34,150 nt of DNA from positions 1-34,150 of the IMG/VR virus record IMGVR_UViG_3300045120_000124. One strand, written 5' to 3'. Below, piece by piece: positions 4,425-33,893 of the stretch. The position numbers and the translations under genes were made by a program. This DNA comes from a virus. A model generated the notes under the pieces. That model saw nothing but the letters and a program-made list of their open reading frames with translations, was not told where the DNA came from and did no database searches. Numbering within the stretch: the first letter of the stretch is position 1; the number at the start of each line of letters is the position of its first letter.

Positions 4425-6419
4425 ATGCGTAAAGCCTACGCCCTCATTGACGTCAAGTCCTTCGACGTCCAAAAACGCGAATTTACAGGCACCGCGACGT
4501 CTCCGGTCACGGATAGAATGGGCGATGTCATTGAGCCGGCGGGCGTGCAATACGCCAATCCGCTGCCGCTCCTGCTCTATCACGATTCCAAAAAGCCGGT
4601 CGGTCAGACGCGGTTCGGGAAAGCCACTCCGACAGGCGTGCCCTTTTCGGCCACCATTTCTACGATCGACCGCCCCGGAGTCGTCAAAGACCGCCTGGAT
4701 GAAGCGGTCGATTCGCTCAACGCGCAGCCCCCGCTGATTCGTGGCGTCTCGATTGGGTTCCGCGAACTCGAGGATCCGGTCTACATGCCCGAGACGGGCG
4801 GTTATCGGTTTTCGCGCATTGAAGTCCTCGAATTATCGATGGTCACGATTCCAGCGAATCAAGCCGCGACGATCGATAACGTGAAAGCTTTTGACCTCGC
4901 ATCGACCGACGCCGCCGCGATAGGCACTGCGTCCTCGGCGCTTCCCTTGCCCGGCGTCACGGGCGCATCGCGCATCGTTCGGATGCGCTCGGAGACGAGT
5001 ATGAAGAAGTCCATAGCCGATCTGATTGCCGGGTGGGAAACGACCCGCGCGCAGAAGGCCGCACGACAGACCGAGATTCAACAGAAGGCGACCGATGAAG
5101 GCCGCGTGAAAGACGAGGCCGAATCCGTCGAGTTCAAAGAGATCGAAACCGACCTGGGCCGGATCGACGGCGAGATTGCCGACCTGAAGCTCATGCAATC
5201 GCGCGAAGTCGCGGCGGCCGTGGTGGTCCGGGGCGAGACCGCCCAACTCGGGAGCGTCACCCGCCCGGCGACGACCGTCAGCATCACGCGCAATCTGCCG
5301 AAAGGCTTTCTCTTCGCGCGTTACGCCATATGTATGGCGAACTCGCGCGGCATCCCCGGCGAAGCCATCCGGCTGGCGAAGGAACACTACCGGGACGATC
5401 CGGGCGTGGTCGCCCTGGTCGAAAAGACGGCGGTCGCTGGCGGCGCCACCAGCGGCTCGCATTGGCTCGACGACATGGTGCCCTACAACGTCATGGCCGA
5501 CTTCATTGAGTATTTGCGGCCGGGCTCGATCATCGGCAAGTTCGGCGGCCCGAATCCTGGGGCGCCTGGACGGAACTATCCGGCCTTGCGCCGGGTGGGC
5601 TTCAACGAGCGGGTGAGCGGCATGTCCACCGGGTTTACCGCCGGGTGGAAGGGCGAGGGCTTGCCGGCCCTGCCGAGTGCCGCCGTCACGTTCAACACGG
5701 CGCTGCTCTGGAATTGCATGTCGGCCTTGGCGATTCTGACCAAGGAAGCCGTGCGGTTCTCGAACCCGAGTGCCGAGATGCAGGTGCGCGACGACCTAGC
5801 GCGGGCGGTCAATCAGAAGCTCGATAACGATTTCGTCGATCCGGCGAAAGCGGTGAGCGGCACGACCTCGCCGGCCTCGATCACGAACGGGGTCGTGGCA
5901 ACGGCGCCCTCGGGCACCGCGGCGACGAATGTGCGGCACGACCTGGCGGCGTTGCTGGGCCTCTTTGCCGGCAACAACTTGGTGGGCTCCGACTTGACGC
6001 TCATCATGTCGGCCACCGAGGCGGCGCAAATCAGCAACATGGTGAACGCGCTCGGGCAACCCGACTTCCCGACGCTCACCATGGAAGGCGGCTATCTGGC
6101 CGGGATGCCGGTCATCGTGTCCGAATTGCTGACGTCGCTCGGGTCGCCCTCGACGCAGATGATCGTCATGGTGAAAGCCGGCGATGTCTATCTCGCGGAC
6201 GATGGCGTGGTCACGGTCGAAGCCAGCGATCAAGCGTCCGTCGAAATGGTGGACACGTCCTCGCAGTCGGCCATCAGCGGCACGGGCGCCTCGCTTGTCT
6301 CGCTCTGGCAGACGGGCGCGATCGGGCTGTTGGCGAATCGGGAGATCACCTGGAAAAAGCGCCGCTCGACGGCAGTCCAGTATCTGTCGCCCTGCGCCTA
6401 CGTCGTCCCGACGTCCTAG
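4425..6419 (+). CDS. Fused HK97-type prohead protease and major capsid protein
   Basis: One 664-residue product carries two head functions usually made by separate genes. Residues 1-150 are an HK97-family (U35/S78) prohead protease, with candidate catalytic His53 (LLYHDS), Ser109 (RGVSIGF) and the typical C-terminal signature LELSMVTIPANQAA at 135-148. Residues about 193-265 form a charged helical segment, as expected of the HK97 delta scaffold domain. Residues about 270-664 are an HK97-fold capsid subunit. Such fusions are known in some phages, with the protease freed by self-cleavage. An in-frame ATG at 5001 with GGAG 6 nt upstream could also make the capsid part alone. No strong ribosome binding site precedes 4425. 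Confidence 0.92.
   Translation: MRKAYALIDVKSFDVQKREFTGTATSPVTDRMGDVIEPAGVQYANPLPLLLYHDSKKPVGQTRFGKATPTGVPFSATISTIDRPGVVKDRLDEAVDSLNAQPPLIRGVSIGFRELEDPVYMPETGGYRFSRIEVLELSMVTIPANQAATIDNVKAFDLASTDAAAIGTASSALPLPGVTGASRIVRMRSETSMKKSIADLIAGWETTRAQKAARQTEIQQKATDEGRVKDEAESVEFKEIETDLGRIDGEIADLKLMQSREVAAAVVVRGETAQLGSVTRPATTVSITRNLPKGFLFARYAICMANSRGIPGEAIRLAKEHYRDDPGVVALVEKTAVAGGATSGSHWLDDMVPYNVMADFIEYLRPGSIIGKFGGPNPGAPGRNYPALRRVGFNERVSGMSTGFTAGWKGEGLPALPSAAVTFNTALLWNCMSALAILTKEAVRFSNPSAEMQVRDDLARAVNQKLDNDFVDPAKAVSGTTSPASITNGVVATAPSGTAATNVRHDLAALLGLFAGNNLVGSDLTLIMSATEAAQISNMVNALGQPDFPTLTMEGGYLAGMPVIVSELLTSLGSPSTQMIVMVKAGDVYLADDGVVTVEASDQASVEMVDTSSQSAISGTGASLVSLWQTGAIGLLANREITWKKRRSTAVQYLSPCAYVVPTS
4991..5003 (+). 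promoter_or_regulatory. Possible internal translation start of the capsid domain
   Basis: GGAG at 4991-4994 lies 6 nt before an in-frame ATG at 5001 (Met193 of the fusion), exactly where the capsid scaffold domain begins (MKKSIADL). Internal initiation would give a 472-residue capsid protein without the protease and help set the protease to capsid ratio. This is inference. Confidence 0.4.
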
Positions 6420-6488: not shown

Positions 6489-6686
6489 ATGCCACGTTAC
6501 GTCTGCCTGAAACCCCTACCGGATGGGCAACTGCCTGGCGATGTGTTTGAGATCGCCGCCGCCTTCGGGAATGTCTTTCTCGCCGTCGGGGCGGTGCGGT
6601 TGGCGACCGAGGCCGACGTGCCCGAGACTGATCGCCCAAAGAAGCGTACCTACCGCCGCCGCGACCTCCAGCCTGAGCAGCCCTAA
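6489..6686 (+). CDS. Small basic-tailed protein between capsid and portal
   Basis: I do not recognise this 65-residue protein. The first 45 residues look like a compact mixed alpha/beta fold (PRYVCLKPLPDGQLPGDVF), and the tail is very basic (RPKKRTYRRRDLQ), which could contact DNA or a negatively charged partner. Its stop overlaps the portal start (TAATG at 6684-6688), so the two are co-translated. Small genes in this slot are sometimes head-decoration or DNA-binding head proteins, but nothing here proves it. Confidence 0.68.
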   Translation: MPRYVCLKPLPDGQLPGDVFEIAAAFGNVFLAVGAVRLATEADVPETDRPKKRTYRRRDLQPEQP

Positions 6687-8044
6687 TGCGCCTCGGGCCG
6701 TTTGAGATTTCTCGCCGCAAGGCGACTCAAGACTTCATTACGCCCTGGCCGATTACCGGGCCTTCGGCCTGGTGGCCGGTCATCCGCGAAAGTTTCTCCG
6801 GGGCCTGGCAGCGGGGGGTGACGGTCGCCGTCGATGATGCGGCCACCCATCCGACGCAATGGGCCTGCCTCACGCTCATCGCCAGCGATATTGCGAAATG
6901 CCGGCCGACGCTCGTCGAAGAAGACGACACGGGGATCTGCACCGAAGTGCGGCGCAATTCACCCTTCCTCGGAGTGGTCGATCGGCCGAATCATTTTCAG
7001 GACGCCATTCAGTTCTATTCCTCGTGGATGTTGTCCAAGCTGACCTACGGCAACGCCTATGCCATGAAGGCGCGGGACGGGCGCGGGATCGTGACCGAGC
7101 TTTATGTGCTTAATCCCATGCGCGTGAAGCCAATGGTCACGCCCTTGGGCGACATCTATTATGCGCTTCAGCAGGATCCGCTCGCAGGGCTCACGGAGGC
7201 CAGCATCATCGTGCCGGCGCGCGAGATTATTCACGATCGCTTTAACTGCCTCTATCACCCGCTCGTCGGCTTGTCGGCCATCTATGCGAGCGGCCACGCC
7301 GCGATGCAGGGTTTGATTATTTCCGGCAACACGACGCGGCTCTTCAAGAATGGCGTCCAGATTGGCGGGATTCTCACCGCCCCAGGCGTCATCAGCGTCG
7401 AAACGGCGAAGCGGCTCGAGCAGGGCTTTCAGCAGAACTACGGCGGCCCAGAAAATGCCGGCAAGATCATGGCGCTGGGCGATGGGCTGAAGTTCGACAA
7501 GACGCCGGTCATGTCGGCCGTGGACGCGCAGTTGATCGACCAACTCAAATGGGACGATGAGAAGATTTGCGCCACCCATCATGTCCCGGCCTACATGGCG
7601 AACGTCGGGCCGCTGCCGAGTTACAACAACGTCGAGGCCTTGGGCCAGCAATATTACGGCCAGTGCCTGCAGTTTCACATTGAGTCGCTCGAAGCCTGCC
7701 TGACCTACGGGCTGGACTTGCCTGCCGGCATGGAGATCGAATTTGACCTGGATGCGCTCGATCGCATGGATTCGGTGCAGCGCATGGAGGTCGCCACGAA
7801 GGGCGTCATCGGGGGCGTGCTGACGCCCGATGAAGCGCGGGCGCGGTTCAATAAGGGCAAGACGCCGGGCGGCGATGTGGTCTACCTGCAGAAGCAGAAT
7901 TGGCCGCTCGAACTGCTGGGCCAGGATGCGAAGCCAGCGACTCCTCCCGCCTCGTCCGCGCCGCCTGCTCTGCCTGCCCCCGTGCCGCCGAAGAGTTTGG
8001 ACTTCGCGGAGATTCAGGCCCTCGTCGCAAAGGAATTGGCATGA
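6686..8044 (+). CDS. Portal protein, HK97 family
   Basis: Forms the dodecameric ring at the unique capsid vertex through which DNA is packaged and to which the tail connectors bind. The 452-residue product has features of the Phage_portal (HK97 gp3) family: an early HPTQWACLTLIASDIAKCRP segment, a central SAIYASGHAAMQGLIISGN helix, the FKNGVQIGGILTAPG strand pair, a GPENAGKIMALGDGLKF wing segment and the THHVPAYMANVGP region. The last 50 residues are proline- and alanine-rich and probably disordered. Unusually for the order, it follows rather than precedes the protease-capsid fusion. ATGA at 8041 couples it to the next gene. Confidence 0.93.
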   Translation: MRLGPFEISRRKATQDFITPWPITGPSAWWPVIRESFSGAWQRGVTVAVDDAATHPTQWACLTLIASDIAKCRPTLVEEDDTGICTEVRRNSPFLGVVDRPNHFQDAIQFYSSWMLSKLTYGNAYAMKARDGRGIVTELYVLNPMRVKPMVTPLGDIYYALQQDPLAGLTEASIIVPAREIIHDRFNCLYHPLVGLSAIYASGHAAMQGLIISGNTTRLFKNGVQIGGILTAPGVISVETAKRLEQGFQQNYGGPENAGKIMALGDGLKFDKTPVMSAVDAQLIDQLKWDDEKICATHHVPAYMANVGPLPSYNNVEALGQQYYGQCLQFHIESLEACLTYGLDLPAGMEIEFDLDALDRMDSVQRMEVATKGVIGGVLTPDEARARFNKGKTPGGDVVYLQKQNWPLELLGQDAKPATPPASSAPPALPAPVPPKSLDFAEIQALVAKELA

Positions 8045-8817
8045 CCGACGAAGAACGATTGGCCGCGACGATTGTCTTGGCGGTCAAAGCCGCCACGGGC
8101 CCGCTGCTCGAGCGGATTGCTGTGCTCGAAGCGCGTGCGACAGAGGCGGTCGGCCGGCCCATCATCACGAACGAGCTTTGGGAGACCATGACGTCGTTTG
8201 TCGAGTCAACCCGGGCGCGTCTCGATTGGGTGGAGGGACGGGCGCTGCTTCCTGGGCCCGCTGGCCCTGCCGGGCCTGCTGGGAAAGATGGCGCTCCTGG
8301 TGCCAACGGCAAAGATGGCACCCCAGGCCGCGATGGCGTGGACGGCGTGAGCGTGATGGGCCTCAAAGGGGACGATGGGGCAGACGGCAAGGATGGCGCG
8401 CCGGGTCGTGACGGACGTGACGCGCTGCCGATGCCAGGCCCCGCGGGCCGTGATGGGATCGACGGCAAAGACGGGAAAGATGGCGTGAGCTTCGAGGACA
8501 TTGGTTTTGAGACCGACGCGGACGGGCATCTGTGGATTACGGCCGTGCGCGGGGACATCCGCAAATCGGCGCGCGTGCCAGGGCATGTTAATCGAGGGCT
8601 GTGGAAGGAAGGCGTCTCATATCTTCTGGGCGATGGCGTCACATGGGCCGGTTCCTACTGGACGGCACAGGCCGACACCTCCGAGAAACCCGGCGACGGG
8701 GCCACGGCCTGGCGCATGGCGGTGAGGCGTGGCGATCAAGGCAAGGCGGGACGGCCGGGCGACAAAGGCGATCCGGGCCTCAAAGGCGACAAAGGTGATC
8801 CCGGTCGGTGGTCATAA
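8041..8817 (+). CDS. Collagen-like protein with a carbohydrate-binding-like module
   Basis: The 258-residue protein begins at an ATGA overlap with the portal stop. Residues 1-68 look helical and could form a trimerising coiled coil. Residues about 72-149 are nearly continuous Gly-X-Y triplets (GPAGPAGPAGKDGAPG and so on), expected to form a collagen triple helix. Residues about 182-225 contain GLWKEGVSYLLGDGVTW followed by GSYWTAQ and TAWRM, the spacing of small chitin-binding (CBM5/12-like) modules. A second Gly-X-Y block ends the protein. Such proteins often form virion surface fibres. It overlaps the first gene of the sugar-modifying cassette, so glycosylation of its own triple helix or recognition of host glycans are both plausible. 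Confidence 0.85.
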   Translation: MTDEERLAATIVLAVKAATGPLLERIAVLEARATEAVGRPIITNELWETMTSFVESTRARLDWVEGRALLPGPAGPAGPAGKDGAPGANGKDGTPGRDGVDGVSVMGLKGDDGADGKDGAPGRDGRDALPMPGPAGRDGIDGKDGKDGVSFEDIGFETDADGHLWITAVRGDIRKSARVPGHVNRGLWKEGVSYLLGDGVTWAGSYWTAQADTSEKPGDGATAWRMAVRRGDQGKAGRPGDKGDPGLKGDKGDPGRWS

Positions 8818-9410
8818 CCGGCGCGATTGATCGGATCTGGTCCGGAGCGACGGTCGTCTGTCTCGGCACGGGGCCGAGTCTCACCCAAGCCGACGTGGAC
8901 ACCTGCCGAGGCAAGGCGCGGGTCATCGCCATCAAACATGCCATTGAGCTCGCCCCCTGGGCCGATGCGCTCTACAGCGGCGAGAAGGCCTGGTGGAATG
9001 CTGGTGTCAAATCGTTGGCCTACACCGGCCTGCGCGTGGCGATTGAACCTGGGGAAACCAGGTGGGGAGCGACGGTCTTGAAGAACACCGGCCCGATTGG
9101 TCTCGAGACGCGCCCGACAGGCCTGCGGACGGGCAAGAACTCGGGCTATCAGGCCATCAATCTCGCCTATCTGTTCGGCGCCGGCAAGATTGTGCTGCTC
9201 GGCTACGATATGGAACGTGGGGCTGACGGCCAGGATCATTTCTTCGGGCAGCACGCGCATGGCGGCCATCCTCCGTTGAAGGAATTTCTGCCCCTCTTCG
9301 AGACATTAGTCGCCCCCTTGGCAGCAGAAGGCGTGTCGGTCGTGAATGCCAGTCGGCGCACGGCCTTGACCTGTTTCCCCCGTCAGACGATCGCGCAGGC
9401 GCTTGCATGA
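8808..9410 (+). CDS. Rossmann-like GTPSL protein (DUF115/GT42-like)
   Basis: The 200-residue protein starts with GTG at 8808, inside the end of the collagen-like gene, with AAGGTGAT about 10 nt upstream. Residues 15-25 read TVVCLGTGPSL, the nucleotide-binding signature of DUF115 and sialyltransferase-like families. Later segments (RTGKNSGYQAINLAYLFGAGKIVLLGYDM) match the pattern seen in phage-encoded members, in which the Gly-Tyr-Asp segment closes a strand. Family members act on nucleotide sugars or related substrates, so a glycosyl transfer role is likely but the substrate is unknown. First gene of an eight-gene sugar cassette. Confidence 0.75.
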   Translation: MVITGAIDRIWSGATVVCLGTGPSLTQADVDTCRGKARVIAIKHAIELAPWADALYSGEKAWWNAGVKSLAYTGLRVAIEPGETRWGATVLKNTGPIGLETRPTGLRTGKNSGYQAINLAYLFGAGKIVLLGYDMERGADGQDHFFGQHAHGGHPPLKEFLPLFETLVAPLAAEGVSVVNASRRTALTCFPRQTIAQALA

Positions 9411-10147
9411 GACCGCGCATCTTTCTCGGCTGGGATCCGTCACAAATGCGGGCCTGGAATGTGGCGGCAGCCTCACTGCGCCGTCACGCCCTCTCCGGGG
9501 CCGAGCCCGAACGTCTGAGCATGATGGGCCTGCCCGGCTACACGCGCCCGACGGAACTCCGACCCCACGGCTATTGGGATGTGATCTCGCAGGCGCCGAT
9601 GTCCACCGCCCATGCGATTGCCCGCTTTTTCGTGCCGGCGATCTGTCAGTATCGCGGCTGGGCGCTCTTCACCGATGGCGATGTGCTCTTTCGGCGTAAT
9701 GTCGCAGACCTCTTCGCGTTGGCCGATTCGAGCAAAGCGATTCAAGTCGTGCAGCATTCGCACGCGCCGATCGAGACCGTCAAGATGGAGGGGCAGACGC
9801 AAACGGCCTATGTGCGGAAAAACTGGTCAAGCGTGATGCTCATCAACTGCGGGCACCCGGCGCATCGGGCGCTCACGGCTGAACTGGTGAATACCGCCCC
9901 TGGACGGGATCTGCATCGGTTCTGCTGGCTGCAGGATGAGTTGATTGGCGCGTTGCCGCCCGAGTGGAACGTGCTCATTGGCGAAGAAATCCATCCCGAT
10001 CCGGCCCTCGTGCATTTCACGCTCGGGCTGCCCGATATGGCCGGCTATGAACATCAGCCGTTCGCGGACGAATGGTATGCCGTGGCGGCTGGCTGCGGCT
10101 ATCGCCTCATCCGCCCGGCGCCGCCGGTCGAAGAGCGATCGGCGTGA
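9407..10147 (+). CDS. Glycosyltransferase, GT-A type
   Basis: The 246-residue protein is coupled by ATGA to the gene before. A DGD motif at residues 90-92 in LFTDGDVLF is the metal and nucleotide-sugar binding DXD of GT-A enzymes. A helix-rich region with WSSVMLINCGHPAHRA and a late VHFTLGLPDM histidine/glycine segment resemble GT8-type and related small transferases. It should transfer a sugar from a nucleotide donor in the cytoplasm; donor and acceptor cannot be read from sequence. The next gene begins in a GTGA overlap. Confidence 0.8.
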   Translation: MRPRIFLGWDPSQMRAWNVAAASLRRHALSGAEPERLSMMGLPGYTRPTELRPHGYWDVISQAPMSTAHAIARFFVPAICQYRGWALFTDGDVLFRRNVADLFALADSSKAIQVVQHSHAPIETVKMEGQTQTAYVRKNWSSVMLINCGHPAHRALTAELVNTAPGRDLHRFCWLQDELIGALPPEWNVLIGEEIHPDPALVHFTLGLPDMAGYEHQPFADEWYAVAAGCGYRLIRPAPPVEERSA

Positions 10148-10962
10148 GTCCGGACACGGCGTCTATTGCCACGGCGTCTGTCGAAATTCTCCGCTTTGCC
10201 GCCGAAGGCTCACGGGCACGCCTGGTCATGGACGCCATGAGCCACAGCGCCCCGCAGGCGACGGGCATTCTGCATTCAGTAGCACGCACGACCTGCTATC
10301 GCGGCGGCGCGGATTGGCTGGTGTTGTGGGGACCTGGCGCCCCAGACCGGCGTGAGCCGATGCGGCGGCAGCTTGCGGCGGGAGGCCGGGTTATTGCGCT
10401 TGATTTGAGCTATTGGGATCGGCCGACGAAGTTTCGCGTCTCGATCGATGCCGCCCACCCCCAAGCGTGGGTGCTCCGGGGCGACTGGCCGATGAGTCGT
10501 TGGGACGCGTCAGGGCTGGCCTGTGAGTCTGCTTGGGATCCGCGCGGGCCGGTGATCGTGGCCGGCATTGGGGACAAGGCCCGGATCCAATATGGGCGGC
10601 AAGTGGCCGATTGGGAGACCGCCATGACGCTCGAGGCCCGTCGGCGCGGCTATCGGGTTGTCTATCGGCCGAAGTTGCGGCATCAACTCACGCCAATCGA
10701 AACGGCGTTGCGCGGGGCGGCGGCCGTCATCACTTGGCATTCCAACGTCGCGGTCGATGCGATTCGCCTCGGCGTGCCCGTCATCTGCCGGGATGGCGCG
10801 GCGGCGGCCATCTGCCCGTCTCAATGGACGGACGGGAGACCGGAGCCGGTGGCCGACGATCTGCGGCGCCGGTTCCTGGCGAATCTGGCCTGGTTTCAAT
10901 GGGCGCCCACTGAGACGTCAGGCTATTGGGCCTTCCTGCGGGATCTGTTATGCGCGTCGTGA
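10144..10962 (+). CDS. Probable GT-B-fold glycosyltransferase
   Basis: The 272-residue protein probably begins with GTG at 10144 in a GTGA overlap with the previous stop; the only ATG further upstream lies inside that gene. The C-terminal half contains ALRGAAAVITWHSNVAVDAI followed by RLGVPVICRDGAAA, the arrangement by which GT-B enzymes and capsule-type transferases hold the donor sugar nucleotide. The N-terminal half has an alternating strand/helix pattern with GADWLVLWGPGAP. It is short for a full GT-B enzyme, as is common in phages. Substrate unknown. Confidence 0.65.
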   Translation: MSPDTASIATASVEILRFAAEGSRARLVMDAMSHSAPQATGILHSVARTTCYRGGADWLVLWGPGAPDRREPMRRQLAAGGRVIALDLSYWDRPTKFRVSIDAAHPQAWVLRGDWPMSRWDASGLACESAWDPRGPVIVAGIGDKARIQYGRQVADWETAMTLEARRRGYRVVYRPKLRHQLTPIETALRGAAAVITWHSNVAVDAIRLGVPVICRDGAAAAICPSQWTDGRPEPVADDLRRRFLANLAWFQWAPTETSGYWAFLRDLLCAS

Positions 10963-11684
10963 GTCCCTATCGGGCGCTGACGACGGAAAGCCCTTCGCAT
11001 CGCAAACTGGGCGCCTTCGATTGGGTCGAAGCCTTGGCCCTGCTCCGCGCCAGCGTCGATCGGACCTGTCACTGTGAAACGGTCGGCCTCACGGATCTGA
11101 CGACTGAGCTGCCCGATCCGGTCTACCGCTTTCCCGCACGGCATGATCGGCTCATGTGTTGGATTCTCGAGGTGAGCCTGGCGTATCTTGAGTCGCCGCT
11201 CTTCGATCAAGATACGGTGTTCGTCTCGCCCGATTCGATCATCCTGCGCGATTTGCGGGCGGGGTTCTCGGGTGATTTGACGGTGCTGGTCCGCTCCGCG
11301 GCGCGGTATCGCTTGCGGCCGATTCTTAATTCGGTGCAATGGTGGCCGCTGCACGGGCGCAGCCGGTTGATTCCCTTCTATCGTCGGGCCTTGGCGATTG
11401 CCGAAGGCTTGAACGAGAATCTGCAGCGGTGGGGCGCCGATAGTGAATCGTTGCGCCAACTGCTCTTTCCCATCAGCCCTGGCCTGCAGCACCGCGCCGG
11501 GCTGCGCGTGTCGTTGTGCGAATTTTCCCCCGTCTTTATCTCGCTGTCGGGGACGATGATGCGGGCGCTCGAAGAGCACAAGCCGTTGCCGCTTCCACCG
11601 TGGGCTAAAATTCTTGACTTCAAAGGCCCGCGCCGCAAACCCTACATGGCGGCGTGTGGTCGATCGCTCGGCCTGACGTCATGA
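10950..11684 (+). CDS. Putative GT-A-like transferase of the sugar cassette
   Basis: The 244-residue protein has two possible starts: ATG at 10950, or GTG at 10959, which makes the GTGA overlap typical of this cluster. I annotate the ATG. The sequence has an early conserved-looking patch (RFPARHDRLMCWI) and LFDQDTVFVSPDSIILRDL, where the acidic residues stand where a GT-A DXD would lie. No family is recognised with certainty. Its position between clear glycosyltransferases and the shared pattern of short length and coupled starts suggest a sugar or nucleotide-sugar function. Confidence 0.55.
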   Translation: MRVVSPYRALTTESPSHRKLGAFDWVEALALLRASVDRTCHCETVGLTDLTTELPDPVYRFPARHDRLMCWILEVSLAYLESPLFDQDTVFVSPDSIILRDLRAGFSGDLTVLVRSAARYRLRPILNSVQWWPLHGRSRLIPFYRRALAIAEGLNENLQRWGADSESLRQLLFPISPGLQHRAGLRVSLCEFSPVFISLSGTMMRALEEHKPLPLPPWAKILDFKGPRRKPYMAACGRSLGLTS

Positions 11685-12346
11685 CGACCGTCTTCACGGC
11701 CTGCCTGGGTCCGGACAGTCCGATGGTCCGATCGCCCGAGGAGCGGGATCCGAAGGCGATCTATCTCTGTTTCAGTGATCGGCCTATCGACGTGCCGCCC
11801 TATGAATGGGTGCCTGTGCTGCCGTCGGACACGCCCAGGCTCGATTCCAGGCGCATCAAAATCTTGGCCGATCATCCTCGGCTACTCGCCAGCGACGTGA
11901 CGCTCTGGCACGATGCGTCCTACCGGCTGCTGACCGTGCCGCGGTGGGCCGCCTACGTCTTGCGCCGCACGCCGGCCGATGTCGTGGCGATGCGGCATCC
12001 CCGACGGCAGCGCATCGAAGAGGAAGCCGCCGCGATTGCCCGCTGGGGCTATCTCACGCTCGAAGAAGCTCTGGCGCACGTCGCCCGCTATCGCAGAATG
12101 GGCTTTGAAGGGACGGCTGGCCTCACGAGTAACGGCCTGCTGGCCCGTCGGGTCTCGGTCAAGAACACCGAATGCAACCGTCTCTGGTGGGCCGAAGCGC
12201 AGTTGTGGGGCGGCCGTGATCAAGCGTGTTTTGACTTCTGCGCGTGGGCGACTGAAGTTCGTGTCTCCTACGTGCCGGGATCGGTGCGCCAGAACCGGTA
12301 CGCGGCGTTTCGGGAACCGATCGAGGAAGCGGTAACGGTCGCATGA
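11681..12346 (+). CDS. DUF616-type glycosyltransferase
   Basis: The 221-residue protein starts in an ATGA overlap. The central block SRRIKILADHPRLLASDVTLWHDASYRLL matches the DUF616 (TOD1/MUCI70-like) pattern, where Arg-Lys and a Trp-x-Asp triplet near a strand end form the sugar-nucleotide site. It is followed by MRHPRRQRIEEEA, again typical, and a GLTSNGLLARR segment late in the protein. DUF616 members are treated as GT-A transferases. The acceptor is unknown. It directly precedes the deacetylase, with which it may act on the same glycan. Confidence 0.75.
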   Translation: MTTVFTACLGPDSPMVRSPEERDPKAIYLCFSDRPIDVPPYEWVPVLPSDTPRLDSRRIKILADHPRLLASDVTLWHDASYRLLTVPRWAAYVLRRTPADVVAMRHPRRQRIEEEAAAIARWGYLTLEEALAHVARYRRMGFEGTAGLTSNGLLARRVSVKNTECNRLWWAEAQLWGGRDQACFDFCAWATEVRVSYVPGSVRQNRYAAFREPIEEAVTVA

Positions 12347-13113
12347 TCACGAGCGGCGACGTGCTACGCGCCTTGAGTGATGGCCGGCCTGTGCCTGGGC
12401 GGCATCTGCTCGTCACCGCCCATCCAGATGATGAGACGATTTCATTTGGCGGGGCACTCTGCCTGATTGCGGACGTGCGGCTGGTCGTCATGACGCATGG
12501 CGTGCCGCCTGAGTCGGATCCCGAACTGGTGAGTCAGCGGCTGACGGAACAGCGGGCCGCGATGGTGGCTGGCGGGTGGGACATTCCCGTCATGGCCGGC
12601 ATTCTGCAGGCCCGCACCCTGCACGATCATCTGCTCGAAGCCCGCTGGGCCTTGAGCGAACTCATGGCGGACGTTGATGTCGTCTGGACGCATCCGTATG
12701 AAGCCGGCCATCTGGATCACGATTCGTGCGCCTGGCTCGTGCAGGATCTGTGCGGCACAGGCGGCCCGCTCCGGATGGAGTTCGCGTCCTACCACGCGAC
12801 TCGCGCGACGTGGCATCAGTTCGGGGTGTTCTGGCCTGACGTCGATCATCCCGCCGTGTCGGTGCGCTATGTCGGCCATGAGTGGCGCCGGAAACAGGCC
12901 GCGATTCAGGCTTACGGCAGCCAACTGCGCGTCCTGGGGAAGTTTCCTAACTGGCAGGTCGAGCACTATCGATCGGCCCCTTGGTATGACTTCACCCGGC
13001 CGGCGCCGCCGTCGGCCTCACGGTGGGATCGGCGCGGCACGCTCACGCCCACGACGGCAGAATGGCGGGCGATCGTGCTGCGCGCGTCCATCTTGATTGG
13101 GGCGATGCCATGA
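12343..13113 (+). CDS. PIG-L (LmbE-like) deacetylase
   Basis: Zinc-dependent enzyme family that removes acetyl groups from N-acetylglucosamine-type sugars. The 256-residue protein shows the family's HPDDE motif at residues 27-31 and the second metal ligand set HLDH at 123-126. Length is normal and the N-terminal Rossmann-like strand order is intact (HLLVTAHPDDE, VRLVVMTHG). Both flanking starts are ATGA overlaps. In this cassette it would create free amino sugars or trim glycans made by the upstream transferases. Confidence 0.9.
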   Translation: MITSGDVLRALSDGRPVPGRHLLVTAHPDDETISFGGALCLIADVRLVVMTHGVPPESDPELVSQRLTEQRAAMVAGGWDIPVMAGILQARTLHDHLLEARWALSELMADVDVVWTHPYEAGHLDHDSCAWLVQDLCGTGGPLRMEFASYHATRATWHQFGVFWPDVDHPAVSVRYVGHEWRRKQAAIQAYGSQLRVLGKFPNWQVEHYRSAPWYDFTRPAPPSASRWDRRGTLTPTTAEWRAIVLRASILIGAMP

Positions 13114-13754
13114 AACACGTCTCGGGTTGGGCCTTTCCCGATGCCGACATGTTCATGGCGGCTGAGATGAAGGCCGACGGCAGTTATCAGCGATCGCATT
13201 TCGACATGGCCTTACGCTTTGTGACGGACTTCTCGTTTGCCATTGACGGGGGCGCCCACGTCGGGACATGGAGCCGACTGCTGAACGATCGCTTTCTACA
13301 GGTGCTGGCCTGTGAACCGAGTCTAGATACCTACGAGGCGCTGGTCACGAACATGCACGCCTTCGACTGCCGGCACGTCATCACGCGCCAGTGTGCGCTC
13401 GGGGCGGCGCCTGGGTTCGTGTCAATGGCGCCACTCGAACCACGCGCCGCGATGTTGAAGAATACCGGCGCGCGATTCGTCCAGAATGGCGGGTCGATTC
13501 CCCGTATCACGATTGATTCGTTGGAACTCGTCTCGCTTGGGTTCTTGAAACTGGACATTGAAGGATCCGAACCGCTGGCACTGACGGGGGCCGCCGACAC
13601 ACTGCAACGCTGTCGCCCGATCGTGCTCTTCGAGCAGAAAGGCTTTGCCGTCCGCTATCAGTTGCCCAAGGATGCGGCCCAGCAGGTGCTCACAGGCGTC
13701 GGGTATCACGAGCTCGCCATCGCCGGCTGCGATCGGATCTGGGGGCCGCGATGA
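13110..13754 (+). CDS. FkbM-family methyltransferase
   Basis: S-adenosylmethionine-dependent O-methyltransferase family, often acting on sugars or polyketides. The 214-residue protein has the motif I sequence AIDGGAHVG at residues 44-52 and the FkbM hallmark FLKLDIEGSEPLAL at about 145-158, which follows PRITIDSLEL as expected. It starts in an ATGA overlap with the deacetylase. It probably caps or modifies the glycan made by the neighbouring enzymes. Confidence 0.9.
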   Translation: MKHVSGWAFPDADMFMAAEMKADGSYQRSHFDMALRFVTDFSFAIDGGAHVGTWSRLLNDRFLQVLACEPSLDTYEALVTNMHAFDCRHVITRQCALGAAPGFVSMAPLEPRAAMLKNTGARFVQNGGSIPRITIDSLELVSLGFLKLDIEGSEPLALTGAADTLQRCRPIVLFEQKGFAVRYQLPKDAAQQVLTGVGYHELAIAGCDRIWGPR

Positions 13755-14302
13755 TCGCCAACCGTCAGGAACTGGCGACCTACTTCAACGACAAGGGCTT
13801 TCGCGTCGGGGCGGAAGTGGGCGTCGGGGATGGCCTCTATGCGAAGACGCTCCTCGAGCGCATCTCAGGCCTGTGCCTCTATGGCATCGATCCTTGGGAT
13901 AACGGCGGGGGCAATCGGCGGGGTGAGGCCAGTTATCTGGCGACCATGACGCATCTCAAGGGCTTCGTGGCGTCGGGCGCCTTTGTGCCAGTCCGCAAAC
14001 TGAGCGTGGCGGCGGCAGCAGACTTTCTGGATGGAATGCTGGATTTTGTGTTCATCGACGCGGCGCACGATTACAAGAACGTGACGCAGGACCTTGAGGC
14101 GTGGACGTTGAAGGTCAAGCCAGGAGGTATCGTCTCTGGGCACGACTACTACAACGTGAAGAACTGGCCGAAGACGACCGGCGTGACCCAAGCCGTGAAC
14201 GATTACGTGACAGCGCACGGAATCAAACTTGAAGTGATTGGCTGGGATCGGAAGAACCCGGACGGCGACAGCCGACAACCCTGCTGGTGGTTTGTCCGAT
14301 GA
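13751..14302 (+). CDS. Class I SAM-dependent methyltransferase (Methyltransf_24-like)
   Basis: The 183-residue protein begins MIANRQELATYFNDKGF and carries the S-adenosylmethionine-binding GAEVGVGDG (about residues 21-29), GIDPWD at the end of strand 2, DFVFIDAAHDYKNV (about 98-111) and VKPGGIVSGHDYY. This is the pattern of Methyltransf_24 enzymes found in polysaccharide clusters. Start and stop both overlap neighbours by ATGA. With the FkbM enzyme it gives this cassette two methylation steps. Confidence 0.88.
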   Translation: MIANRQELATYFNDKGFRVGAEVGVGDGLYAKTLLERISGLCLYGIDPWDNGGGNRRGEASYLATMTHLKGFVASGAFVPVRKLSVAAAADFLDGMLDFVFIDAAHDYKNVTQDLEAWTLKVKPGGIVSGHDYYNVKNWPKTTGVTQAVNDYVTAHGIKLEVIGWDRKNPDGDSRQPCWWFVR

Positions 14303-15159
14303 ATATCTTGGTTGTCGGTCAAGGCCCGAAGCCGGTGGGCTCATGGATCATGCGCGGGATTCAACTCGGGGCGGCGCTCGGGGCGCGGGTCGTTCAGACA
14401 CCCACGCCCGAAGATTGGCGGTGGGCCTCCCTGGCCATCCTTGTGAAGAATCACGCCCTGCCGCTCGTGGCCCAAGCACAGGCAGCCGGCGTGCCGATCA
14501 TCTGGGATGCCTTGGACTTCTGGCGGCAACCGGCGGAGAACCGCTGGACGGAAGCCCAGGCGCGTCAGGGCCTCGCCGCGGCCCTCCGGGTGATGCGGCC
14601 GGTGCTCACGATCGGCGCCACGCGCGCCCAAGCGGAGGCGGCGGCGGGCCGCTACCTGGTGCATCACAGCCGGGGCGGGCTCGTGCCCACGGAGGCCCGA
14701 GCGACCGTCACGACGGTCGGCTATGACGGCAGCCCCTCCTACCTCGGGCGCTGGCACGGCTGGCTGGCGTCGGCCTGTCATCGCCGCGGCTGGTCGTTCG
14801 TCATGAATCCCCAGGACTTGGCCGCGATGGATCTGCTCGTGGCCTTTCGGGATGGAGTGTTTGATGGCTGGCCCTGTCGGGAGTGGAAAAGCGGGGTCAA
14901 ACTGGTGAACGCCATCGCCGCGGGGCGCCCGATCCTCAGTCAGCCGAGTGCCGCCTGGGCGGAACTCACGCCGATGGGGTCGATTCTCTCCACGGTGGCC
15001 GAGCTCGACGCGGCCCTGGACGAATGGACGCCCTACCCGATGCGCCGCGCCGTGGTCGAATCCTCAAAGACACGGGCCGAAATGTTCCACGTTGAACATG
15101 TGGCGGCAGACTACCGTGCGATAATCGGCGCCTATGCGCGCCACGAGGTGCAGCCATGA
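14299..15159 (+). CDS. Glycosyltransferase-like protein, GT-B type
   Basis: The 286-residue protein starts MNILVVGQGPKPVGSWIMRGIQL, a GT-B N-terminal strand-loop-helix. Its C-terminal part has EWKSGVKLVNAIAAGRPILSQPSAAWAEL, the donor-binding end of GT-B transferases, followed by a TVAELDAALDEW helix that fits the same fold. It is short for a GT4 enzyme and a canonical EX7E motif is not evident. Last member of the sugar cassette; its stop overlaps the head connector start (ATGA at 15156-15159), so cassette and connectors share translation. Confidence 0.7.
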   Translation: MNILVVGQGPKPVGSWIMRGIQLGAALGARVVQTPTPEDWRWASLAILVKNHALPLVAQAQAAGVPIIWDALDFWRQPAENRWTEAQARQGLAAALRVMRPVLTIGATRAQAEAAAGRYLVHHSRGGLVPTEARATVTTVGYDGSPSYLGRWHGWLASACHRRGWSFVMNPQDLAAMDLLVAFRDGVFDGWPCREWKSGVKLVNAIAAGRPILSQPSAAWAELTPMGSILSTVAELDAALDEWTPYPMRRAVVESSKTRAEMFHVEHVAADYRAIIGAYARHEVQP

Positions 15160-15815
15160 ATCGCGGGATTTACTGGGAGTATTTTGAGACACCGTGGATC
15201 CTGGGGGCCAGGGGCGCCTGGGATGAGGGCGTCACCTGGCGCAGTATCCGCACGGTGGCCCCGACGGCGCTGCCCTGTGACGCGGACTACATCCGGAATG
15301 ACGTCCTGCGCGTCACAAACGAAGCCGAGCAATACCATATCCAGCAACTGCTCTGGCAAGTCACCGAACTGGCCGAAGACGCCACCCAACGGGCGCTGAT
15401 GCCGCAAACATGGACGATGGTGCTCGACCGCTTTCCGTGCCATCTGATTCGGCTGGTGCGTCCCCCTCTGCTCGAGGCGGTCAGCATCGCCTATGTAGAC
15501 GGGGACGGGAATACCCAAACGCTCACGGGCTCACCGGCGGAGTTTCAGGTCTGCTCGTCTGGCGAGATGGTCATGGCCGAACTCGTGCCGCTGCCGGGTT
15601 CGAGTTGGCCGGCCACGAAGACCCAACGGGATGCCGTGACCGTGACCTTTCGGGCCGGCTATGCGACGGCCGCCGCCGTGCCCTATCTCATCCAGGCCGG
15701 GATTGCCTTGGCGACCGGCGAACTCTATAAGAACCGGGAACTGTCCATCTCGGGTTACAAGAACAACCTGCCGTCGGTCTTGAAGCTCGATCAATTCTGG
15801 GCGCGCGTCTGGTAA
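15156..15815 (+). CDS. Head-tail connector, phiE125 gp8-like
   Basis: Protein that docks on the portal ring to start the neck. The 219-residue product has the layout of the phiE125 gp8 / gp6-like adaptor family: an N-terminal alpha-helical bundle segment (QLLWQVTELAEDATQRALMPQ), a beta-rich insertion (RPPLLEAVSIAYVDGDGN) that includes TVTFRAGYA, and a closing helix (IQAGIALATGELYKNRE). The N-terminal 40 residues are longer than usual and may be an extension. Order with the following adaptor and gp10-like genes is standard. A 62-bp gap follows, in which I see nothing definite. Confidence 0.85.
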   Translation: MNRGIYWEYFETPWILGARGAWDEGVTWRSIRTVAPTALPCDADYIRNDVLRVTNEAEQYHIQQLLWQVTELAEDATQRALMPQTWTMVLDRFPCHLIRLVRPPLLEAVSIAYVDGDGNTQTLTGSPAEFQVCSSGEMVMAELVPLPGSSWPATKTQRDAVTVTFRAGYATAAAVPYLIQAGIALATGELYKNRELSISGYKNNLPSVLKLDQFWARVW

Positions 15816-15877: not shown

Positions 15878-16225
15878 ATGTCGGTCACGATCGATGCGGG
15901 CCTGCTTCGTCATTCCGTCGTCTTAGCGAACCCTGGCACGCCCGTGCAGAACAGCGACGGTGGGTTTACGGACGCCTGGACGGCACTCTCGCCCGCGACG
16001 GTCTATGCTGCGATTGAAAGCGCCACGGCCGCCCGCATGGAACGCATCGCCAACAGCACCGTCACGAGCAATGCCAGCCACGTCGTGACGTTGCGCTATC
16101 ACCCGCAAGTGACGACGAAAACGCGCGTCACGTTTGGGACGCGGACGTTTCAGGTGGTCGGGGTGATTAATGAAGATGAGATGAACGTCCTCACACGCGC
16201 CCTCTGCACGGAACTCGTGCCATGA
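15878..16225 (+). CDS. Head-tail joining protein (SPP1 gp16-like stopper)
   Basis: The 115-residue protein fits the Phage_H_T_join family: LLRHSVVLANPGTPVQNSDGGFTDAWTALSPATVYAAIE, an Arg/Thr-rich central hairpin, THVVTLRYHPQVTTKTRV-like strands (here NASHVVTLRYHPQ) and the conserved RTFQVVGVINEDE near the end. It forms a ring that closes the DNA channel below the connector. The start at 15878 is the first ATG of the frame; no clear ribosome binding site is visible. ATGA couples it to the next small gene. Confidence 0.9.
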   Translation: MSVTIDAGLLRHSVVLANPGTPVQNSDGGFTDAWTALSPATVYAAIESATAARMERIANSTVTSNASHVVTLRYHPQVTTKTRVTFGTRTFQVVGVINEDEMNVLTRALCTELVP

Positions 16226-16434
16226 TTACATCAAAAATCTCAAATCAACAACTGGCTGTGGCATTTGAGAAGCGGGGTCTCCTACCGCCGAATTGCCGCC
16301 TAATCGAACTGTCGATTGGGGTAACTGGCGCCACGATTGTTCGGTATGAACGGTTCGTGTCTGCCTCCGATCTTCAACTCGTGGCTGACGCTCTTTCAGA
16401 GTGCGCCGAAGTAGAGCGGAAGCAGAGCGCATGA
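16222..16434 (+). CDS. Small protein inserted in the connector cluster
   Basis: I do not recognise this 70-residue protein. It starts and stops in ATGA overlaps, so it is translated with its neighbours. The first 45 codons are visibly less GC-rich than the flanking genes. Sequence suggests a short alpha-beta-beta-alpha fold (QQLAVAFEKRGLL, RLIELSIGVTGATIVRYERFV, LQLVADALSECAEVE). Connector modules do not normally carry a gene here, so it may be a later insertion or moron. Confidence 0.65.
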   Translation: MITSKISNQQLAVAFEKRGLLPPNCRLIELSIGVTGATIVRYERFVSASDLQLVADALSECAEVERKQSA

Positions 16435-25286: not shown

Positions 25287-26999
25287 ATGGGCGCCCCGTT
25301 CGTCGATCAGGTGCAGGATTCGCTGTTCACAGGACAGAGCACGACCGTCTTCACGACGCCCGCGCAGAATATCGTGGCGGGCAGTTGTCTCGTGGTGTGC
25401 TTCACCCATGCGGTGCATGCCGGCCGACTGACGGACGTTACGAACAGTTCGGGCGATAACTTCGTGTTCGTGGGCGCCGTCGACGATGCGACCTCTGACC
25501 GAGGAATCGAAATGTGGATCTGCCGCAATCCGGCGGTGAACGCGAGCTGTAGCGTGACCGCACGCGGTAGCAGCATGAACTACTGGATTCTAACCTGCGC
25601 CCAATACACGGGGGTGATTTCAGCACGGGATGTGGTGAACAAGACGGGCACCGGGACCGGCACGGCGATCTCGACGGCAAGTTTCAACACGACCTCCGCC
25701 GAGGAATACGTGTTCTGCTACGTCGAATCGTCCACGGGCAGTATTACCGCAGGGGGCAACTTCACGATCGACACGAGCGGAATATCGCTGGAAAGCTGGC
25801 ATCCGTTGACGACGCAGACGGGCGTGGCGGGCGATGCCACGAACTCTGTCTCAGCCATTTGGCTCGCTGTGGCGGCCTCGGTCGTCATTGCGAGCTATGT
25901 CGACAACTTCAGTTCCTATAAGACCGTCACGATTGACCACACGCAAGTCGGCGGGGGCGCGCTCATCAACTATTCGGTGACGATTGGCCGTGGGGTGGGC
26001 CCACAATCGGCAGATTCTGACCTCAAGACGGTGGGCAATGGCGGTTACGTCCAGAGCAGCAGCGGCTATGACATTCGGCCGTTTGCCGACAGCGGCCTGA
26101 CGATGCCGCTCAATTTCGAGTTGGTGCCTGGCACCTATGACTCCGCCACGGGCTCATTCGAGATGCACGTCAAAGTCCCGAACATCTCCGCGAGCGTCGA
26201 TACGGTGTTCTATCTCGCCTTTGGCGATGCGGGCCTCACGACCGATGCGAGTTCGGTGCGGGCATGGAACGACTTCTATCAAGGCGTCTGGCACTCGGCC
26301 GACGGATCGACGCTCTCATTAAGCGATTCCACGTTCAGGGCCAACAACGCGACCAATCACGGCACGACGGCGACCACCGGCGACATCGACGGCGGCCTCG
26401 GGTATAACGGCTCCTCGCTGTATCAAGCGATTCCGATGGCGGGGTTCCCGAGTGGCAACGCCGCCCGCTCCGTGCAAGCGTGGCTGAAGCCGACGGATGT
26501 CACCACCAACTACAATAGTTTCTTAGGCTACGGGAACAATGCGTCAAATCAGGCGTTCGCCTGCTATACCGATCCGACCGTTTCGGGCAAGGTAGCCGTC
26601 GGAGGGTATTTCAACCCCCCATCGAGTCTTTCTTCGACCCCCTTGACCATCAACGTCTGGAATCATGTCGCCATTACCTACGACGGCACCACGATCCGTT
26701 ACTACTTAAACGGTTCGGCCGATGGCACGGCGACATTTACGGCGTTCGGCGGAGTGCTAGCGACGAGCAACATCAAGGGGTTTCTCGGCTGCGACTTGGA
26801 CATCTCCGTCTTTGCGACCGGCGTGCAGGATGAAACACGCGTCACCAACAACGTGCTCAGTGCTGCCGTCATCGCCGCCGACTACAACGCGCAGAAGGCG
26901 TCCTCGACGTTTCTGGCCTGGGGCAGTCGGATCCCGGTTGGCGGGAGCAGCGGGAAGCCCATGCTCTATTTCGTGCAGCAGCGTCAGCAGTCTGCGTGA
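25287..26999 (+). CDS. Receptor-binding fibre protein with DUF2341 and LamG-like domains
   Basis: The 570-residue protein starts 1 nt after the previous stop. Residues about 1-220 are an N-terminal beta-rich part. Residues about 245-310 resemble DUF2341 (GYDIRPFADSG, PGTYDSATGSFEMHVKVP, VDTVFYLAFGD). Residues about 320-520 look like a LamG/concanavalin A-like jelly-roll: GVWHSADGSTLSLSDST, SVQAWLKPTD, NVWNHVAITYDG and YYLNGSADGTATF, the last two being signature segments. These pairings are common in carbohydrate-binding surface proteins and in phage fibres, where they bind host polysaccharide. Confidence 0.82.
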   Translation: MGAPFVDQVQDSLFTGQSTTVFTTPAQNIVAGSCLVVCFTHAVHAGRLTDVTNSSGDNFVFVGAVDDATSDRGIEMWICRNPAVNASCSVTARGSSMNYWILTCAQYTGVISARDVVNKTGTGTGTAISTASFNTTSAEEYVFCYVESSTGSITAGGNFTIDTSGISLESWHPLTTQTGVAGDATNSVSAIWLAVAASVVIASYVDNFSSYKTVTIDHTQVGGGALINYSVTIGRGVGPQSADSDLKTVGNGGYVQSSSGYDIRPFADSGLTMPLNFELVPGTYDSATGSFEMHVKVPNISASVDTVFYLAFGDAGLTTDASSVRAWNDFYQGVWHSADGSTLSLSDSTFRANNATNHGTTATTGDIDGGLGYNGSSLYQAIPMAGFPSGNAARSVQAWLKPTDVTTNYNSFLGYGNNASNQAFACYTDPTVSGKVAVGGYFNPPSSLSSTPLTINVWNHVAITYDGTTIRYYLNGSADGTATFTAFGGVLATSNIKGFLGCDLDISVFATGVQDETRVTNNVLSAAVIAADYNAQKASSTFLAWGSRIPVGGSSGKPMLYFVQQRQQSA

Positions 27000-32640: not shown

Positions 32641-33192
32641 ATGGTTGCCAAAAGTGATCCTACCCTGATTATTAGGTGCCTTGTCTGTGATGCGGTCCTT
32701 GCACCAGTCGCCAACCGACAAGTGCAATATCGACAGACGCGGCGCCCGACCTGTTCAATGCGCTGCCTTAAACTTCTGCCGTCAGAGGCCACGCATTATA
32801 AAAGTCGCCATGTAGCAGGCCGACATCTCTATGACCATCGCGCGATCGCCGCCGCGGCGCTGGGCCGACCACTGCCCGCAGGAGCGCACGTCCACCATGT
32901 CGATGGCAATTCGTTAAATAATGCCCGCAACAATCTGGTGATTTGTCCCTCATGGGCGTATCATGCACTTCTTCATGCGCGGCAACGTATCCGTGAGGCT
33001 GGGGGAAACCCCAACACCGACGCCTGGTGTTCCGCGTGCAAACGTCCACTTCCGACGGCCGAGTTTTACGTGAGAAAAACACGAACATTTAGGGGAAGGA
33101 CATGGGGGCCGCTCACCTCGGTCTACAAACCATGTTCAAGATTGCGGGCGAGATTAGCGGCGCCCTTGCGTCAGAAGCGGCGGGAGCGATGA
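32641..33192 (+). CDS. HNH endonuclease with zinc-binding cysteines
   Basis: The 183-residue protein has an HNH core: HVHHVDGNSLNNARNNLV at residues 83-100, with the last catalytic or metal-binding histidines near 108-112 (YHALLH). Cysteines 13/16 and 38/42 probably form a zinc site, and C130/C133 another. A group I-like homing or packaging-associated nuclease is possible; HNH proteins near terminases aid cos cleavage, but here the gene is far from the terminase in the window. ATGA at 33189 couples it to the methyltransferase, so a restriction-modification-like pairing is also possible. Confidence 0.85.
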   Translation: MVAKSDPTLIIRCLVCDAVLAPVANRQVQYRQTRRPTCSMRCLKLLPSEATHYKSRHVAGRHLYDHRAIAAAALGRPLPAGAHVHHVDGNSLNNARNNLVICPSWAYHALLHARQRIREAGGNPNTDAWCSACKRPLPTAEFYVRKTRTFRGRTWGPLTSVYKPCSRLRARLAAPLRQKRRER

Positions 33193-33893
33193 AGCCCTAC
33201 TACGAGCACGCGGGGATCACGATCTACCACGGGGATTGCCGTGAGGTGCTGCCTTACTTGACGGCTGACGCGTGTGTGACGGACCCGCCATACGGCATCA
33301 ATTTAGTCACGAAAACAAGCGATTATACAGGGAGCAAATATTTCGACGCCGGTGCTTCTCTCTTAGCGTCAACTCTTTATTCAGATGAGCCGTCACAGAT
33401 TCGAGAGTTGATTCAACAAGTGATGCCATTGTTACTAGGCATTATTGACCGCGCGCTTGTGTTCTGCGGCCCTCGGATGATATGGGCCTATCCAGAACCA
33501 GCGGGCATCGGATGTGTCTTCATCCCTAGTGGCGCTGGCCGATCAGCATGGGGATTTCAATATTTCCAACCGATTTTGTTTTATGGTAAAGACCCCTATT
33601 TAGCCGATGGAAAGGGCGGACAGCCTAACTCTTTTCGCACGGAGCAGCCGAATCTTGAACACTTCGACCATCCATGTCCTAAGCCTATATCTTGGATGAA
33701 TTGGGCCGTTAACCGTGCGAGTCGGCCTGGTGAAACGGTGGTCGATCCATTTATGGGCAGCGGCACGACATTAAGAGCGTGCAAAGATCGTGGCCGAAAC
33801 GCCATCGGCATCGAAATCGAGGAGCGCTACTGTGAAATTGCCGCCAAACGGCTGGCGCAAGAAGTCTTGGACTTTACGGCCGTGGAGGCGTAG
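33189..33893 (+). CDS. DNA methyltransferase (N6-adenine or N4-cytosine), mosaic
   Basis: The 234-residue protein starts at an ATGA overlap with the HNH gene; a longer frame from 33102 lies inside that gene. Motif IV DPPY is at residues 32-35 and motif I DPFMGSGTT at 186-194, the order of beta-class amino-methyltransferases. The ends are GC-rich (38 of 60 bases in 33181-33240), but the middle is AT-rich (26, 25 and 22 of 60 in lines 33301, 33361 and 33541), suggesting a swapped target-recognition region. A 110-base piece (33510-33619) is repeated exactly at the window end. It could protect phage DNA from host restriction. Confidence 0.88.
   Translation: MKPYYEHAGITIYHGDCREVLPYLTADACVTDPPYGINLVTKTSDYTGSKYFDAGASLLASTLYSDEPSQIRELIQQVMPLLLGIIDRALVFCGPRMIWAYPEPAGIGCVFIPSGAGRSAWGFQYFQPILFYGKDPYLADGKGGQPNSFRTEQPNLEHFDHPCPKPISWMNWAVNRASRPGETVVDPFMGSGTTLRACKDRGRNAIGIEIEERYCEIAAKRLAQEVLDFTAVEA
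33510..33619 (+). repeat. 110-bp direct repeat, copy 1 (inside the methyltransferase)
   Basis: These 110 bases are identical to 34041-34150. This copy is in the AT-rich centre of the methyltransferase gene and is read as coding sequence. The bases just upstream differ between copies; the downstream limit cannot be seen because copy 2 runs off the window. Confidence 0.97.

Follow-up and report, generated by a model that had tools for sequence, protein, structure and literature searches.

A predicted nine-gene virion-glycosylation cassette in the head operon of a siphovirus-type phage

Why does a phage carry a set of sugar-transferring and sugar-modifying enzymes among the genes for its head, and what do these enzymes modify? 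The question is raised by the IMG/VR virus record IMGVR_UViG_3300045120_000124, of which a stretch of 34150 bases (hereafter the window) was analyzed. The window contains a siphovirus-type structural operon with the order terminase, protease-capsid fusion, portal, collagen-like protein, glycan cassette, head-tail adaptor, head closure, neck, tail terminator, major tail protein and tape measure. The tail terminator and the tape measure were named by position and shared gene order, and the other genes of the operon by PHROG or Pfam matches. A search of phage isolates at the DNA level gave no match.

The cassette occupies positions 8808-15159, with all genes on the + strand. The initial annotation had described eight genes here; its coordinates, strand, position and overlaps were correct, but the count was not. 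We found nine genes (g1 to g9), which encode six predicted glycosyltransferases, one PIG-L deacetylase and two methyltransferases (FkbM and Methyltransf_24). In line with the proposed insertion between portal and head-tail connector genes, the cassette is anchored upstream by the portal gene (6686..8044, +; phrog_2271, E 1e-101) and the collagen-like gene (8041..8817, +; PF01391 above cut-off), which overlap by ATGA, and downstream by a head-tail adaptor gene (15156..15815, +; phrog_442, E 1e-16). Two products of this operon are candidate acceptors of a glycan, namely the prohead protease-major capsid protein fusion (4425..6419, +; phrog_617, E 1e-91) and, alternatively, the collagen-like protein, which has a weak CBM5/12-like C-terminal match (PF02839, E 0.006). 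At window 7900-8817, a match to phrog_1289 was noted as well; it concerns the C-terminal part of the collagen-like product, and the family's name, portal protein, is probably misleading in this case.

Further features of the window were also recorded. A 70-aa protein is encoded between head closure and neck (window 16222-16434), and its homologues lie within the transferase cassette of two relatives (L010:15264-15506 and L020:10003-10242; L numbers designate loci of relatives). The tail region encodes a possible receptor-binding protein, which has a lectin domain of the concanavalin A-like type (Laminin_G_3; window 25287-26999). At window 32641-33893, an HNH endonuclease-like gene overlaps the start of the next gene, which encodes an N6/N4 DNA methylase (33102-33893).

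Is the cassette expressed together with the head genes? Short start/stop overlaps had been claimed throughout, and indeed genes overlap by 4 to 13 nt at each of the eight internal junctions and at the two borders of the cassette. Eight of these ten overlaps are 4 nt long (ATGA or GTGA), while that between the collagen-like gene and g1 is 10 nt and that between g3 and g4 is 13 nt long. The start codons of g1 to g9 were set from the overlaps, the g3 start at 10144 being GTG. Outside the cassette, overlaps occur at 7 of the 19 junctions of the structural block, among them that between portal and collagen-like gene. The initial annotation had further supposed that the output of the cassette follows that of the virion genes, and had named a separate promoter as evidence to the contrary. 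Consistent with the proposal, a scan of the region for promoter-like sites detected none within the cassette; the sole site was inside the portal gene, and sites were fewer than in shuffled sequences. The overlaps and the lack of an internal promoter-like site make it likely that translation of the cassette is linked to the head genes. A foreign origin of the cassette was considered on the basis of base composition and rejected, because GC and GC3 are those of the flanks. The AT skew of the cassette is negative, largely due to codon positions 1 and 2, and thus probably reflects protein content.

Which activities does the cassette encode? The product of g1 (8808..9410) is a predicted GT42/sialyltransferase-like (DUF115/MptE-like) glycosyltransferase (phrog_4603, E 2e-36) with phage matches; its relatives include P1 PmgP, P7 HdmB, D3 orf7 and PAJU2 gp10. 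The GT42 label comes solely from the match to phrog_4603, itself an annotation, and the name of this family, alpha-2,3-sialyltransferase, is best read as denoting a predicted fold, not an activity and not sialic acid. The g2 product (9407..10147) is GT8-like, with a DGD motif, a match to phrog_28018 (E 9e-44), a match to PF01501 (Glyco_transf_8) below the cut-off, and 38 viral relatives. For g3 (10144..10962), a GT-B glycosyltransferase (DUF6716-like) is predicted, since PF20471 (DUF6716, putative glycosyltransferase) was matched by 15 of 25 members of the g3 family (best E 5e-6). The g5 product (11681..12346) resembles TOD1/MUCI70 glycosyltransferases (PF04765, E 7e-4, below cut-off) and weakly matches a phage glycosyltransferase family (phrog_26101, E 5e-6). 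For both g3 and g5, a glycosyltransferase function is thus predicted from matches below curated cut-offs. No Pfam family was matched by g4 (10950..11684) and g9 (14299..15159), and no significant PDB hit was obtained in profile searches with g3, g4 and g9. AF2 models of g4 (pLDDT 92.6) and g9 (pLDDT 92.2) showed a GT-A and a GT-B fold, respectively. According to Foldseek, the closest structures to the g4 model were UGGT, GT8, GT6 and the capsid glycosyltransferase of PBCV-1 (2p72), with E values of about 1e-7, and those closest to the g9 model were SenB, Gtf3 and GtfC (E 1e-8 to 1e-6). The models support the view that g4 and g9 are glycosyltransferases.

The remaining three genes matched Pfam families above cut-off. 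The g6 product (12343..13113) is a PIG-L family N-deacetylase (PF02585), and its AHPDDE and GHxDHD (HxDH) motifs are invariant in the family alignment; g7 (13110..13754) encodes an FkbM-family methyltransferase (PF05050), and g8 (13751..14302) a Methyltransf_24 methyltransferase (PF13578). Judged by the number of enzymes, a complex glycan, as suggested by the initial annotation, is plausible. When g1 to g9 were examined for transmembrane segments, no convincing one was found, and neither flippase-type genes nor a polytopic membrane transferase were detected in the cassette. In this respect it differs from a Gtr-type serotype-converting cluster, which has both.

Does the cassette recur in other phages, and next to which genes? 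Near relatives, as judged by the portal, have the order portal, collagen-like gene, g1, variable transferases and methyltransferases, and then the adaptor, whereas most farther portal relatives have a short gap instead of a cassette. In the portal tree, cassette carriers group strongly together, and the presence or absence of the cassette changes about 11 times. The order of the block is much alike in L143, L145-L152 and L184: L145, L147 and L149 contain g1-g2-g3-g4-g7-g9 followed by the adaptor, and L146 and L184 additionally g5 and g6. Since independent viral contigs contain the block in the same order, the cassette is not a chance arrangement. Several variants were noted. In two Mesorhizobium prophages (L096:2395-8704 and L130:3730-9908), a related cassette lies between the capsid and portal genes, and thus at an insertion point different from that in the window. 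A cassette-bearing relative is also the prophage of Nitratireductor aquimarinus TN35-13 (L088). In L144:4719-7463, two g1 copies flank g9, suggesting reshuffling within the cassette. In L010:7066-12820, L016:6984-10245, L023:11383-14702 and L024:1929-7247, the collagen-like region is in two parts: several genes of no known function lie between two collagen-like genes, upstream of g1.

Because a choice of loci by their portal would be biased, we used loci found with g2 alone. This viral scan gave 38 loci (L145-L182), while g9 and g6 gave two loci each, and g3 and g4 as single proteins gave none. Head genes were located at most 6 kb from the g2 relative in 33 of the 38 loci, some of which are near-identical (L168 and L173 were counted with their near-copies L167 and L172). 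These head genes are capsid genes of three different families (phrog_617/10, phrog_1005 and phrog_9953), a phrog_145 portal, or adaptor and neck genes. If 44% of random positions are roughly assumed to be that close, the probability of at least 31 of 38 loci lying near head genes by chance is 2e-6, a value to be taken as a guide only, since the loci are related. Among the other five loci, the g2 relative is located by a tail sheath gene (L180), a collagen-like homologue (L155), an internal virion protein gene (L157) or near a heptose-biosynthesis gene (L181), and in L179 it has no identified neighbour.

The heptose-biosynthesis neighbour in L181 would fit enzymes that alter the host surface polysaccharide and thereby block superinfection or adsorption to debris; LPS and capsule are also built by such enzyme families. 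We consider this explanation improbable, because neither a membrane transferase nor a flippase was found in the cassette, nor any clear transmembrane segment, its translation appears tied to late head genes, and it recurs beside capsid genes.

If virion proteins are modified, which of them is the acceptor? The initial annotation had named the adjacent collagen-like fibre or the capsid. A dedicated collagen-like acceptor would have parallels in bacterial spores and giant viruses, which carry glycosylated proteins of this type, and g1 indeed lies directly downstream of a collagen-repeat gene, both in the window and in most of the near relatives. Collagen triplets are also commoner in cassette carriers (median 27 vs 0), but this raw association fell away after correction for shared ancestry, the corrected association resting on five pairs and not being significant. 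Moreover, many phages carry collagen without a cassette, and no lysyl hydroxylase family is represented among the cassette genes. Since cassette loci without collagen exist as well, a dependence of the cassette on collagen was rejected. In L149, L153 and L162, the block is located directly behind a capsid gene, and the records of L149 (48.6 kb) and L162 contain no collagen. The L149 locus weakens the candidacy of the fibre: here, the six genes g1-g2-g3-g4-g7-g9, with 40-58% identity to those of the window, lie between an unrelated capsid gene and an adaptor gene. Overall, the collagen-like protein is an unlikely dedicated acceptor. Judging from gene order, the constant neighbour of the cassette is the head/capsid region and not the collagen-like fibre, which makes the capsid the better candidate. 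Thus, the acceptor is most likely the major capsid protein or a head protein travelling with it. The location of related genes in tail regions (in L180 and in Caulobacter and Brevundimonas jumbo phages, where g1 relatives come after tail or fibre genes) means that other virion acceptors are possible. C-terminal Ser/Thr tails of the capsid protein were considered as glycosylation sites and dismissed, as they did not differ between cassette carriers and other phages.

A few mycobacteriophages have been shown to glycosylate their virions. Virion proteins are reported to be glycosylated in Corndog and Che8, with glycans found on capsid and tail tube in Corndog (Freeman 2023, cited through PMC12619734, PMC12363180 and PMC11600133). 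In Corndog-type phages, the interval from portal to protease contains the genes for an O-methyltransferase and three transferases, for which capsid modification was proposed; the enzymes are produced in infected cells and were not identified as parts of the virion (PMC4351075). For comparison, we used the Corndog-type (cluster O) cassette of Firecracker, gp33-36. Like the cassette of the window, it combines a methyltransferase with transferases, consists of co-oriented genes among the head genes (in Firecracker between portal and protease/capsid genes), and has overlaps of similar size (4-8 nt); it differs in having four genes instead of nine, no PIG-L gene and actinobacterial hosts. The g8 profile matched the O-methyltransferase gp33 (E 2e-7), while the profiles of g1 to g7 and g9 matched none of gp33-36. 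Since the methyltransferase is the sole family in common, the window cassette is apparently a larger, independently assembled variant of the Corndog type of virion-glycosylation cassette. Together with the placement near head genes in 33 of 38 loci and the lack of membrane segments and flippase, this parallel indirectly supports the initial proposal that virion rather than host glycosylation is the function.

Smaller sets occur in other phages. D3, PAJU2, P1 and P7 carry g1 homologues (phrog_4603) in late or head gene regions, with one to three genes in contrast to nine in the window, and in PAJU2 a methyltransferase is encoded two genes beyond gp10. In P1, pmgP is nonessential (PMC10695390), the essential pmg genes being only five others (PMC9024508), as expected of a decoration function. 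The Caulobacter Bertelyvirus CcrBL9 has relatives of g1, g3 and g2 and an FkbM methyltransferase in one block (gp174-179), as in the window, but in this jumbo phage the block is located after tail genes.

Phages also use glycosyltransferases in DNA hypermodification (Pyle 2024, as cited in PMC12619734), and the DNA methylase encoded in the window would be compatible with enzymes that glycosylate modified bases in the DNA of the phage. However, no hydroxymethyl-base biosynthesis gene was found among the scanned proteins of the window, although the record may be partial, and the relatives of the cassette are located in head operons. A sugar on the DNA is therefore very improbable, even more so than a modified host surface.

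Virion glycosylation is the explanation that we prefer: the cassette probably acts late and in the cytoplasm on virion proteins, most likely on the capsid. The nine enzymes would be translated late in infection with the head proteins, as suggested by the overlaps and the lack of an internal promoter. A first transferase, perhaps g1, would attach a sugar from host nucleotide sugars to a head protein in the cytoplasm, and up to five more transferases would lengthen the glycan. The PIG-L enzyme would then take off an N-acetyl group, and the two methyltransferases would cap hydroxyls. The virion could benefit, for example, by resisting proteases, by being shielded from predators or by not adhering to cell debris. 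We infer the enzyme activities, the order of steps, the acceptor, the glycan and this benefit from the gene content and its arrangement.

More tentatively, and with somewhat less than even confidence, the cassette may represent a mobile, modular capsid-glycosylation system widespread in environmental phages of proteobacteria, mostly alphaproteobacteria. Its core of g1, g2, g3 and an FkbM-type gene would have moved between lineages with unrelated major capsid proteins, each time beside capsid genes, and the shell would be decorated with oligosaccharides that contain up to about six sugars and are O-methylated and in part deacetylated. The proposed role in immune evasion is not supported, since the closest relatives with a name are prophages whose alphaproteobacterial hosts are mostly environmental. 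Prophages of Rhizobium, Devosia and Sphingomonas-type bacteria are among the relatives, and no role in animal immunity is needed. The nine-gene version and its recurrence by unrelated capsid genes suggest that coating the shell with a complex sugar is common in environmental phages. These loci provide many candidate phages in which the acceptor and the benefit can be studied, and a source of new glycosyltransferases.
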